A stretch of DNA of 64,000 nt from Blastococcus sp. DSM 46786 (GTDB lineage Bacteria; Actinomycetota; Actinomycetes; Mycobacteriales; Geodermatophilaceae): positions 1 to 64,000 of the forward strand of contig NZ_FOAO01000017.1 of assembly GCF_900109665.1 (NCBI RefSeq). Direction: 5' to 3'. Below the pieces are notes generated by a model. That model saw nothing but the letters and a program-made list of their open reading frames with translations. It did not search any database and was not told where the DNA came from. Positions 1-5,884 of the stretch are shown in pieces (position 1 is the first letter of the stretch; each line of letters starts with the position of its first letter). The translations under genes were made by a program, and so were the position numbers.

Positions 1-117
1 GCCCAGCAGCCGCCCGGTGGTGTCGACCGCGGCCGCGGTGTGGGTGTCGCAATGGGTGTCCACGCCACCGGCCACCTGGACCTGGTCCGGGGCAGTCTCT
101 GGTGCGATGGTGGTCAT
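1..117 (-). CDS. IS110-family transposase, N-terminal part (cut by window edge)
   Basis: Translating the - strand from the ATG at 117 gives 39 residues that end at the left edge. They contain GVDTHCDTHTAAAVDTTGRLL, close to the first catalytic block (GVDxHxDxHxAAxxD...GxxL) of DEDD transposases of the IS110/IS1111 family; the Asp in GVD would be the first acidic residue of the RuvC-like site. A ribosome binding site (GAGGAGGAC on the - strand) lies just before the ATG. The rest of the protein lies outside the window, so whether the element is intact cannot be told. Family assignment rests on this N-terminal block only, but the block is distinctive. Confidence 0.8.
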   Translation of the reverse strand, partial: MTTIAPETAPDQVQVAGGVDTHCDTHTAAAVDTTGRLLG

Positions 118-240
118 CGCCGTCCTCCTCGCTCGCAACCGACAGGGCGGCACGCACCGCCGGGCGAGCGGACAAGACAGTGATGGGTGCCTGCTGGCAC
201 AGGCTCCTATGAGGTCACACCGCCAGGCTTGGTGAGTGCA

Positions 241-330
241 GCGGGCCCCGCAGCGACCGAACCGACAGATCCGGATAAAGACCCGAGGTCAGTCACCTGA
301 AGGGTCAGGAACGGTTGCTGCGGGGCCCGC
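241..330 (-). repeat. Long inverted repeat in the IS110 non-coding end
   Basis: GCGGGCCCCGCAGC at 241-254 is the exact reverse complement of 317-330. Pairing extends to 18 bp (to 258 / 313) with one mismatch. The enclosed 54 nt can form an inner GACCC/GGGTC stem (- strand). As RNA on the transposase strand this is one large two-level stem-loop, compatible with part of an IS110 bridge RNA or with a stem that shields the element from outside transcription. Confidence 0.6.
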
Positions 331-360
331 CTACATCCTCACTGTCACCTGGTCATCAAG

Positions 361-394
361 GGTCCTGGCTCACGACCGGCGGTGAGCCAGGACC
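361..394. terminator. Perfect 13-bp hairpin, probable terminator of the rpf-like gene
   Basis: GGTCCTGGCTCAC at 361-373 pairs perfectly with GTGAGCCAGGACC at 382-394 around an 8-nt loop. It lies about 60 nt beyond the stop of the - strand rpf-like gene. There is no long T tract, as is usual for high-GC actinobacteria. The right arm is partly repeated at 403-413 (TGAGCCAGGAC). Confidence 0.5.
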
Positions 395-454
395 CCGTGC
401 GCTGAGCCAGGACGGCGGTGGCGGGCCGAAACCCGGCCGCCGCTCGGCCGGCGG

Positions 455-3041: not shown

Positions 3042-3251
3042 ATGGCCACCAGGGACACCGGCGGGCAGCAGAAGGCGACGCGGTCGCGCGAGGAGAACGA
3101 GGAGATCGAGGCCTCGGTCGACTCCGACGTCGCCGAGCGCCACGAGAAGATGTCCGAGGACGTCGACTCGCTCCTGGACGAGATCGACGACGTTCTCGAG
3201 GAGAACAGTGAAGAGTTCGTGAGGGCCTACGTACAAAAAGGCGGTCAGTGA
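3042..3251 (+). CDS. pup: Prokaryotic ubiquitin-like protein Pup
   Basis: A 69-residue acidic, disordered protein ending in KGGQ, the deamidatable Pup C-terminus; the central LLDEIDDVLEENSEEFVRAYVQ is the Mpa/ligase-binding helix. A good ribosome binding site (GGAGGGC) precedes the ATG, and TAGCTT at 2997-3002 is a possible -10. The codon pattern is odd: codons 1-50 all end in G or C, whereas from codon 51 (nt 3192) onward 7 of 19 end in A or T (GTT, AGT, GAA, GTA, CAA, AAA, GGT). The 3' end therefore looks like foreign sequence that still encodes the right protein, continuous with the low-GC insertion that follows. Confidence 0.97.
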   Translation: MATRDTGGQQKATRSREENEEIEASVDSDVAERHEKMSEDVDSLLDEIDDVLEENSEEFVRAYVQKGGQ

Positions 3252-4150
3252 ATAATTGCGCAGAAAACGACCTCCATGGGTCGTCGGTGTACGGACTGCC
3301 GCAGATATCTTGCAGAGGACCGCTATTACTTTGTGTCTAAGGCGAGCGGAAAGCTACGCGGTCAATGCAAAGACTGCATGCGGCAACGCAAACTCGAGCA
3401 GCGAGATCCTGCGTGGGCTCCGTCGTGCTCACGATGCGGGACGCGGCTATCTGAGCGTGCCGGCTCAGGGCGGCGCCTGCGCATTCAGTGCTTCGCGGAG
3501 ACTTACGACGTCTCCGATCCTCGAACTAATGGCGCTCATCGCATCAAGCTCAAGCCTTGCAGCTTATGTGGCGGCCGGAAGGAACGGTTCGAACGCGGGA
3601 AGGTCTGTCGGCCATGCCGCCCTTGGCTTCGATACGCCGCATCCCTTCGTCAATACGGCCTGACTCCGGCGGAGTACGTAGCGATCTTCAATGCCCAAGG
3701 AGGCCGGTGCTACGTGTGCGGTGTGCCGCCGCAGACGGTTCGGTTGTGCATCGACCACGACCACTCAATCTCGGACATGCGGCAGTCCATCCGCGGCCTG
3801 TTGTGTTCGGAATGCAACTACTCTCGGCTACCACGGTTTCAGGACAACGCCGAGATGCTGGAACGAGCAGCCTCCTACCTGATCGACCCGCCGGCGCAGT
3901 CGGTCTTCGCGACCATGCCCGTCGGCATGCCGACACCACCGCCTCCGGAGGGCGTCGTGTTCTTTCCCCAAGCGTCGGTGGGCGACGATCACAGACCTGA
4001 GGACGGGGCGCCGTGGCCGGCGGGCTGGAGGGATCAGCCGACTCGTCGGGCCGCCGGTAGGGTCGCTGACGACGTCCGGGACCACGTCCGAGCAGCACGG
4101 CGGACGTCCCGGCAGAGGAGCGGTGCACGCCGGCGGGAGCAGGCGGGAGA
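3192..4150 (+). mobile_element. Lower-GC insertion carrying an endonuclease VII gene, starting inside pup
   Basis: Base composition changes inside pup at about 3192 and stays markedly less GC-rich through at least 3900, then returns to the local norm before prcB. The segment holds one endonuclease gene. The left edge is placed by the third-codon-position switch in pup; the right edge (about 4000-4150) is uncertain. I read this as a free-standing homing-endonuclease-type insertion that brought its own copy of the pup 3' end, so that Pup stays intact. Confidence 0.55.
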
Positions 4151-4163
4151 GGCGGATGGGTGA
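3276..4163 (+). CDS. Endonuclease VII-like HNH/His-Me finger nuclease between pup and prcB
   Basis: The 295-residue protein has Cys pairs C5/C8 with C31/C34, C51/C54, and C95/C98 with C111/C114, that is, two or three small zinc ribbons. They are followed by a recombination-endonuclease-VII-type domain at about 126-185: YGLTPAEY, then GGRCYVCG (C145, C148), CIDHDH (D160-H163), and RGLLCSECN (C177, C180, N181). All expected metal and catalytic residues are present, so the nuclease looks intact. The tail after residue ~215 is Pro/Arg-rich and probably host-derived sequence read through. It begins 24 nt after pup and its TGA overlaps the GTG of prcB. Codon usage is unlike the flanking genes, a sign of transfer. 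I recall similar nuclease genes at this position in other actinobacteria but cannot verify this here. Confidence 0.8.
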
Positions 4164-5017
4164 ACGAGTCGTCAGCTGGCCGGAGCGGGTTCCCGCCCGC
4201 GTACCTGGACCGGGTGGGTTCCTCGTTCACCGACTTCCTGGCCGCATCCGCGCCCGACCTGCTGCCGGGGCGCCGGCCGGTCCCGCAGCTGCCCGTGGGT
4301 GACATCGCCCCGCACGGCACCACGATCGTCGCCGCGACCTACGACGGCGGCGTCCTCATGGGCGGCGACCGCCGGGCCACGATGGGCAACCTGATCTCCA
4401 GCCGCGACATCGAGAAGGTCTACCCGGCCGACTCCTACAGCGTCATCGGCATCGCCGGCGCCGCGGGCATCGCCATCGAGATGGTGAAGCTCTACCAGGT
4501 CGAGCTCGAGCACTACGAGAAGATCGAGGGGCTCACGATGAGCCTCGACGGCAAGGCCAACCGGCTGGCCCAGATGATCCGCGGCAACCTCGGCGCGGCG
4601 CTGCAGGGCCTGGCCGTCGTCCCGCTCTTCGCCGGCTTCGACCTCGACGCGGCGCCCGGCGAGCTCCCGGGCCGCATCTTCAGCTACGACGTCACCGGCG
4701 GGAACTACGAGGAGCGCGGCTACTCGGCCGTCGGCTCCGGCTCGCTGTTCGCCCGCAACAGCCTCAAGAAGACGTGGCGCCAGGGCCTGGACGCCGCAGC
4801 GGCCACCCGCACCGTGGTCGAGGCGCTCTACGACGCCGCCGACGACGATTCGGCCACCGGCGGCCCCGACCCGGTGCGGCGGCTGTACCCGATCGTCTAC
4901 CGGGTGGACGCCGAGGGCGCGATCCGGCTGACCGACGCCGAGATCGCCGCCGTCGCCGACGCCATCGTCGCCGAGCGCGCGGCCGCCGAACGCCAGAACA
5001 CGACGCGGGAGGCCTGA
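4160..5017 (+). CDS. prcB: 20S proteasome beta subunit PrcB
   Basis: 285 residues with GTG start ([10 protein letters not shown]...). A propeptide of about 53 residues ends in PHG, followed by [21 protein letters not shown]. Thr54 would become the N-terminal catalytic nucleophile after autocleavage. The conserved GSGS...AR segment near the C-terminal third supports an active beta subunit. PrcB forms the two inner heptameric rings of the proteasome core that degrades pupylated proteins. The start codon overlaps the stop of the upstream nuclease gene (GTGA), with a GGGAGAGG ribosome binding site about 8 nt upstream, so its translation may be partly coupled to the inserted gene. prcA follows after 3 nt. 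Confidence 0.97.
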
Positions 5018-5020
5018 GCC

Positions 5021-5884
5021 ATGACGATGCCGTACTACGCCTCCGCCGAGCAGGTCATGCGCGACCGGTCGGAGTACGCCCGCAAAGGCATCTCCCGCGG
5101 TCGCAGCGTCGCCGTCGTCACCTACGCCGACGGCGTCCTCTTCATCGCCGAGAACCCCAGCTCCACGCTGCACAAGGTCGGCGAGATCTACGACCGGATC
5201 GGCTTCGCCGCCGTGGGCCGCTACAGCGAGTTCGAGAGCCTGCGGGTCGCCGGTGTCCGCCTCGCCGACGTGCGCGGCTACTCCTACAACCGGCGCGACG
5301 TCACCGGCCGGGTCATCGCCAACGCCTACGCCCAGACCCTCGGCGCGATCTTCACCGAGCAGATGAAGCCCTACGAGGTCGAGCTCTGCGTCGCCGAGGT
5401 GGGGGAGACCCCCGAGCGCGACCAGCTGTACCGGCTCACCTTCGACGGCTCCGTCGTCGATGAGCCCGACTTCGTCGTCATGGGCGGGCAGGCCGACGCC
5501 GTCACCGCCCACCTGCGCGAGAACTTCCACCCGGGCATGGGCCTGGCCGACGCGCTCCGGGTCGGTGTCGACGCGCTCTCGGCCGTCAGCCCGGCCACCA
5601 CCGGGGCCGCTGACGGCGGCCCCACGCGGCTGACCGCCCAGCAGATGGAGGTCGCCGTCCTCGACCGCCGGCGGCCCAAGCGGGCCTTCCGCCGGGTCGT
5701 GGGAGCCGCGCTGCACACCCTGCTCGGCGACGGTCAGACCGGGGAGACGGAGACGCCTCCCTCGGGCCACGTGCCCAGCCACCCCGCGCCGGGCACGCCC
5801 GCCGGGCTCGGCGACCCGGCCGCGCCCGACACCGCCGGCGGCACCACCGACACCGGCGAGGGGCACCCGCAGAGCGACGGGTGA
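5021..5884 (+). CDS. prcA: 20S proteasome alpha subunit PrcA
   Basis: 287 residues beginning [19 protein letters not shown], the typical alpha-subunit N-terminus ([18 protein letters not shown]) that gates the outer ring. The core has [22 protein letters not shown] and no catalytic N-terminal Thr. The C-terminal ~55 residues are a low-complexity tail (Pro, Gly, Thr, Asp) that makes it about 40 residues longer than the M. tuberculosis protein. It starts 3 nt after prcB, so the two are cotranscribed and probably translationally coupled. Confidence 0.97.

Follow-up and report, generated by a model that had tools for sequence, protein, structure and literature searches.

Close to the first base of contig NZ_FOAO01000017.1 of Blastococcus sp. 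DSM 46786 lies a strong stem that the initial annotation had assigned to the non-coding end of an IS110 element and, possibly, to a bridge RNA. The locus, which opens the stretch analysed here (the window: positions 1–64,000, 64,000 nucleotides, contig C31 from base 1), raises the question of whether this stem belongs to a guide RNA and, if so, to which sites such an RNA would direct its element. Comparison of related sequences makes it almost certain that the left end of an IS110-group element occupies window 344–118 (minus strand) and encodes a bridge RNA, with the stem forming the outer stem of the target-binding loop. The suggestion of a bridge RNA is supported by guide loops that match the targets and donors of the very elements that carry them.

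The left end and its structured RNA

The element occupies window positions 1–344 on the minus strand, as do all of its features described below, and is cut by the contig start. Positions 1–117 encode the first 39 codons of an IS110-type DEDD transposase (translation MTTIAPETAPDQVQVAGGVDTHCDTHTAAAVDTTGRLLG), the remainder being lost at the contig start. Positions 118–344 are the non-coding left end (LE, 227 nt), which holds the bridge RNA; copies within the genome share the LE and differ in the flanks outside it. The IS110 end originally placed at 1–330 is real, but it runs to 344 rather than 330 and its RNA lies on the minus strand (about 344–168). The genome contains six left ends of the element, five complete and one cut short, and the single-contig genome of a congener (G021) contains four complete copies of about 1.33 kb each, with an LE 91% identical. 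In G021 the right end (RE) consists of the 16 nt past the transposase stop codon, and the right ends in the window's genome carry the same end sequence. Alignment of these copies, which the initial annotation had proposed as a check, allowed both the ends and the guide loops to be read.

The long non-coding LE upstream of the gene and the short RE are those of the IS110 group, in which short subterminal inverted repeats of 2–3 bp are described as flanking the donor site (PMC11208160). The 39-residue fragment in the window has by itself no Pfam or NCBIfam match. Its complete relative in G021 (L024, 361 residues) contains the DEDD RuvC domain PF01548 (82.9 bits) and the Tnp domain PF02371 (64.4 bits), scores 174.5 against NF033542, 'IS110 family RNA-guided transposase' (cut-off 140), and resembles the solved ISCro4 and IS621 chains in sequence. 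As in other members of the group, the RNA has two guide loops that match target and donor. A search of the whole window against Rfam at gathering scores gave no match. At two further places in the genome (L021 and L022, contigs C16 and C20) there is another gene of the IS110 family, its open frame 439 codons long, which is taken as belonging to a different element.

The stem originally reported at 241–258 and 313–330 is borne out as an inverted repeat with 19 nt arms at 241–259 and 312–330, 18 of the 19 positions being paired (95% complementary) with 52 nt between them. Folding of the minus strand from 342 to 231 gives −67.7 kcal/mol, compared with −43.0 ± 4.1 kcal/mol for 200 dinucleotide shuffles (z = −6.08, or −6.1 as rounded; 0/200 as low). 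A longer stretch (400–118) gives z = −8.98, a value that includes a hairpin at 361–394 resembling repetitive extragenic palindromic (REP) sequences; this hairpin lies outside the element, is a repeat of the genome and was rejected as a part of the structure. The second (donor) hairpin alone, 233–165, has ordinary stability (z = −0.45, with 65 of 200 shuffles as good).

The bridge RNA was modelled from alignment and folding with 19 relatives as a region of 177 nt (168–344) extending from the first LE base to CTTGTCCGC. Its target-binding loop is enclosed by the reported stem, P1 (5′ arm 317–330, 3′ arm 241–254), which is defined by the inverted repeat, the fold and covariation. Within it, P2 bounds the loop (5′ strand CUGAC with two linker bases at 302–308, partner GUCGG at 262–266; 100% of cells paired in 20 sequences) and the apical hairpin P3 (GACCUCGGGUC, 280–290; 97.5% of cells paired) separates the two target guides. 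The covariation set comprised 20 distinct RNAs, namely the window and 19 relatives, including Actinomycetes and two Trueperaceae assemblies (Deinococcota); repeats of sequences already taken and those missed by the search pattern (e.g. L089, L092, L093 and L099) were left out. Standard pairs make up 95.8% of the cells of P1, P2 and P3, compared with 32–47% (maximum 47.4%) when the partner is slid by 1–3 columns. Changes on both sides are found in 18 of the 25 pairs, 14 of them among the 16 pairs of P1, and none of 500 shuffles reaches any of five covariation measures. The initial annotation had named a stem outside the element, or a lack of covariance among related copies, as grounds for giving up its proposal. 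The outer stem covaries, and it lies inside the element, being common to the five complete left ends of this genome and, with changes, to the four complete copies of the congener. A degenerate copy in G007 (L027) retains about 118 nt of the LE including the target-binding loop, with no donor loop seen downstream.

Guide loops, junctions and crossover

The left target guide (UUCAGGUGACU, 291–301) matches the left target, CAGGTGAC; junction comparison places the left target of this copy, GACCAGGTGA, at 345–354, in the flank outside the element. Agreement was assessed between the eight guide bases that immediately precede the C and the eight bases at the end of the target. Of 54 left junctions, 52 entered the count of left cores, L029 being set aside because no loop was found in it and L030 because it is cut ahead of the loop; L073, with too short a flank, was also dropped from the guide test, leaving 51 sites and 21 distinct guides. 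The loop readings of L088, L097 and L110 were set by hand and one extra base before the L082 junction was removed, here and in the stop-codon analysis below. All eight bases match at 22 of the 51 sites, seven at 19, six at six and four or five at four. At positions t0–t4 the fraction matching is 0.48, 0.90, 0.76, 0.73 and 1.00 for an element's own target, compared with 0.22, 0.47, 0.42, 0.24 and 0.74 for the targets of others, and none of 20,000 shuffles reassigning targets to guides is as good. The three clearest cases of a loop equal to its flank within one genus are CAGGTGAC here, CAGGAGAC in G006 and CGGCTGAC in G021.

Between P3 and P2, the right target guide (UUUAUCCGG, 271–279) is complementary to the right target, its final GG pairing with the target CC; one of 20,000 shuffles matches as well at t9–t13 (13 guides). 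The first two right-hand bases are foretold by this guide in 31 of 32 right ends, L072 being the exception; among those that agree are four with CT, where the guide reads ...GAG, and L077 with CG, where it reads ...GCG. The right flanks of G018, whose right guide is cut off, were excluded from these counts, as were L048 and L066, found after the counts were made. Read by eye, the latter two also agree (guide ...ACCG with flank CGGT, and guide GCCGGG with flank CCCGGC, respectively). They belong to a more distant sister IS110 lineage in the same genus, with different stems and the same guide layout.

The second loop corresponds to the element's own ends. Its left donor guide (CAUAGGAGC, 203–211) equals CATAGGAGC at the right end, and its right donor guide (AUCACUG, 178–184) pairs with CAGTGA at the start of the LE and covaries with it: CACTG accompanies CAGTG, and CACAG accompanies CTGTG in four elements (L078, L112, L114 and L116), with agreement in all 43 visible cases. 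The apical hairpin of this loop, GCCUG/CAGGC (189–204), changes to GCUUG/CAAGC in L074 and L088. In the target loop, the handshake guide AU (269–270) pairs with the AT beside the crossover in the RE and reads AC in all three loci found with a right end GT (L082 and, by eye, L048 and L066). Handshake base pairing has been described for IS621 (PMC11208158).

The junctions themselves differ from those expected of IS621. Left junctions consist of the target followed by C(A/T)GTGA.GATG, and right junctions of CATAGGAGC(A/G)T followed by C and the target. At the left junction the bases are those of the target through the C and then those of the donor; at the right junction the order is reversed. Here the donor core is CA (343–344), which has only the C in common with the target core CC. 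Across the set, left junctions read CA in 48 and CT in four (n = 52) and right junctions CC in 26, CT in four, CA in one and CG in one (n = 32), counts weakened by shared ancestry. In 31 of the 32 the second base at the right end differs from that at the left junction of the same element; only the C is common. According to PMC11208160 and PMC11208158, donor and target of IS621 share the core CT; such a shared CT core was not found among our 52 left and 32 right junctions and the empty sites. A heteroduplex should leave about half of the descendants in the other arrangement and none shows it; we therefore infer that the crossover is confined to about 1 bp, or that repair is consistent. A CA core at both ends was rejected, since neither the empty palindrome nor the gene ends without an insertion have the extra AT, and a 2 nt core with the IS621 cut positions was rejected for predicting mixed junctions, of which none is seen.

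The empty sites are of two kinds. In the window's genome, unoccupied palindromes of the form GATCAGGT-NN-CCTGATC occur at 13 places, nine of them reading GATCAGGTGACCTGATC on one strand, and the spacer is exactly 2 nt in all 13 (the pattern permitted 0–8); the palindrome is also seen in place within copies of the REP-like repeat. The gene end that carries an insertion in G508 (L114) is unoccupied, and has its TGA stop, in eleven congeneric genomes. Five (L133, L134, L136, L137 and L138) read GACTGA followed by CCG, like the joined flanks of L114, and six continue otherwise; we take these loci to be Streptomyces-like. For the insertion L024 in G021, downstream of a gene that is presumably leuS, three relatives span the gene end and have the TGA in common, the intergenic side being too divergent to fix the base.

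Taken together, the comparisons show that the left target guide (CAGGUGAC, on the 5′ side of the target loop) matches the left half of the insertion site and that the right target guide (AUCCGG, on the 3′ side) largely matches its right half. The second hairpin supplies CAUAGGAGC, the same sequence as the right end, and CACUG, the complement of the left end, and the two-base handshake guides match the incoming partner strand. By analogy with IS621, the element would leave as a circle whose joined ends (TTGAC from the RE and GANGAT from the LE) form a promoter for the RNA, and the RNA would hold the donor circle and the target next to each other, with strand exchange by the DEDD/serine recombinase taking place at the shared C. 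In the window the candidate −10 box is GAGGAT (335–340), its −35 partner being the TTGAC of the right end. TTGAC and GANGAT lie 17–18 nt apart in all 15 distinct RE/LE pairs, a spacing that would suit a junction promoter like those of IS621 and ISEc21; the −10 match is weak.

Insertion sites and distribution

Outside the palindrome-guided copies, left targets mostly end in TGA, and the guides of most relatives end in CTGAC. The TGA was examined at 36 of the 54 sites; nine palindrome-guided copies, L029, L030, five sites without TGA (L073, L087, L093, L098 and L111) and two with short flanks (L076 and L094) were left out. With GC content highest at codon position 3 and lowest at position 2 as the sign of coding, the TGA is in the coding frame at 26 of the 36 target sites (failing at the other ten), compared with ten of 110 control TGAC sites elsewhere in these flanks. 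Ahead of the TGA, the open stretch has a median of 289.5 codons, compared with 53 in the controls (Mann–Whitney p ∼1e-8). Insertion is therefore usually directly behind a host stop codon, leaving the stop intact. We found no report of stop-codon targeting by IS110 elements in searches of the open-licence literature, a weak negative, and passages of PMC2516522 do not describe it for IS110.

The palindrome-guided copies, their target a palindrome or near-palindrome often beside REP-like repeats, are those of the window's own genome (GATCAGGTGACCTGATC) and of G006 (GATCAGGAGA...CCTGATC). All six left flanks in the window's genome read GAYCAGGTGA; the six right flanks read CCTGATC in three cases and CCTGGTC, CCTCGTC and CCCGAAC in one each. 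The central GA of the palindrome probably fixes the orientation of insertion. A REP-like hairpin adjoins two of the six left ends on the left (C31, C9) and three of the six right ends on the right (C4, C23 and C43). The one in the window (361–394, unstranded) stands beside the insertion and is not part of the element; at least about 20 other places in the genome match it (40 of 244 candidates scored), and 14 copies were read. Window 344–417 as a whole is a composite REP-like repeat with a direct repeat CCTGGCTCA and a 14 bp hairpin GGTCCTGGCTCAC...GTGAGCCAGGACC, to which GATCAGGTGACCTGATC is often added as a second palindrome. A search of the genome for a Y1 (REP-associated) transposase gave no match. 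On contig C35 (L014, about 1550–1590), a right end standing alone and reduced to about 20 bp (GACGATCCATAGGAGCAT) is joined to half a palindrome next to a REP-like repeat and is perhaps the scar of a deleted copy.

The lineage is scattered. A donor-loop pattern, blind to elements cut before the donor loop (G001, G006 and G018), was found in 11 of 112 genomes of the family and six of 394 sampled genomes of the class, the window's own included; a version of the pattern that is a little narrower was found in one contig classed as viral. This IMG/VR contig (L119, 9033, plus strand) carries an element with a bridge RNA and a right end, its left target ending in TGA behind a 180-codon open frame. 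A search of plasmid DNA returned eight records, none covering 80% of the query, and a search of phage proteins two partial matches.

Elsewhere in the window, 3276–4163 (plus strand) encodes a recombination endonuclease VII domain (PF02945). This gene lies downstream of a Pup-ligase family gene (1420–2925), between a pup-like open reading frame (3042–3251) and proteasome-subunit-like frames (4160–5017 and 5021–5884), the pup and proteasome names being given from the reading of the frames. About three imperfect 34 bp tandem repeats lie between two genes at 1297–1389.

Alternative explanations and comparison with known systems

A very stable GC-rich stem upstream of a gene could be only a terminator or a leader hairpin ahead of the transposase, with no guide function. 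Such a hairpin would leave unexplained both a loop that changes in step with the insertion site and a second loop that matches both ends of the element, and we consider this explanation very improbable. Equally improbable, in our view, is a DNA inverted repeat serving as a recombinase binding site, with the loop matches as target remnants carried along. Cruciforms in DNA too can yield compensatory changes; however, the target halves are split by the apical hairpin and the right half is reverse-complemented, which is the guide layout of a bridge RNA, and P2 and P3 are short helices in which G–U pairs are kept. As for the palindrome, the preference might be chance, the element inserting in many places of which several would happen to lie beside common repeats. 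The larger REP-like hairpin is directly upstream in only two of the six left ends (C31 and C9) and directly downstream in three of the six right ends, and two right flanks out of six disagree with the palindrome; yet the left flank matches the guide in six cases out of six, and the right flanks include three with CCTGATC and one with CCTGGTC. Chance seems a shade less remote than the two preceding alternatives and is still very unlikely.

Several observations weigh against the bridge RNA interpretation or its details. Four loci (L089, L093, L098 and L103) match their own left guide at only four or five of eight bases. The right guide has one mismatch with the right half of the palindrome (CCTGAT, predicted CCGGAT), from which two of the six right flanks depart (CCCGAAC and CCTCGTC), and in the stop-codon elements the right-target match is weak past the first three or four bases. 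Unlike in IS621, two bases separate the end of the left donor guide from the crossover, and in L048 and L066 the match of this guide to the right end is confined to AGGAGC. Many sites share ancestry, and the counts are not all independent. Because the contig start cuts the window's copy, its transposase and right end are not readable from itself and were deduced from other contigs and from G021.

With the bridge RNA interpretation retained, we are evenly divided on a broader reading drawn from the guide and junction sequences. In it, a scattered actinobacterial IS110 lineage, also present in two Deinococcota assemblies, would have a bridge RNA that encodes the donor and target cores separately, leading to crossover at a single shared base pair and not at a matched dinucleotide. 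Left guides mostly end in CTGAC, and the element would therefore home to a host stop codon and leave it intact, a gene-sparing, RNA-guided insertion, while the species of the window and one congener would have been naturally reprogrammed on both target sides to a palindrome that frequently adjoins REP-like repeats. Within one lineage, a natural series of guides and targets can be read, with 21 left guides, three guide-coded target cores, two donor cores, two handshake states and empty sites, and the minimum identity between donor and target that an IS110 recombinase requires becomes open to test. The series also suggests that RNA-guided elements can pick gene-sparing addresses such as stop codons and switch to repeats when a few bases of a loop change. 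A recombinase able to work without two identical core bases in donor and target would be of use in genome engineering.

Earlier papers (PMC11208160, PMC11208158 and PMC11187229) have described bridge RNAs and how these covary with targets, as well as REP targeting and natural redirection, and the comparisons with IS621, ISEc21 and ISMch6 here draw on those papers. As in IS621 (PMC11208160, PMC11208158), the LE-encoded RNA lies upstream of a DEDD/serine recombinase and has two loops, the target loop followed by the donor loop, with the left guide pairing with the bottom strand, the right guide with the top strand and the handshake guides directly 3′ of the right guides. A REP repeat as natural target (here for several copies in the window's genome) is also shared, and a promoter across the right and left ends, a candidate here, may be. 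Unlike IS621, with its CT dinucleotide, the present elements have one C in common (donor CA or CT; target CC, CT or CG), the left donor guide leaves a gap of two bases to the crossover and most members aim at stop codons. The 5′ stem-loop before the target loop is also missing inside the LE, P1 starting 14 nt from the first LE base; a start of the RNA within the RE is possible. The seekRNA systems of ISEc21 and ISMch6 (IS110 type, PMC11187229) resemble the present one in the lack of a target duplication and in natural redirection through guide changes, but differ in target and sequence; that paper describes one natural redirection for the IS110 type (ISMch6, single copy), whereas 21 guides are compared here. 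The IS1111 group likewise combines a DEDD recombinase with an RNA guide. Its RNA is downstream of the transposase, in the RE, with subterminal repeats of 7–17 bp at the ends and a reversed guide order, whereas the guides here were found in the LE, upstream of the gene. Seen against these systems, the features that set the present lineage apart as a variant are separate cores for donor and target, an offset of the left donor guide, the lack of a 5′ stem-loop and the use of stop codons as addresses.
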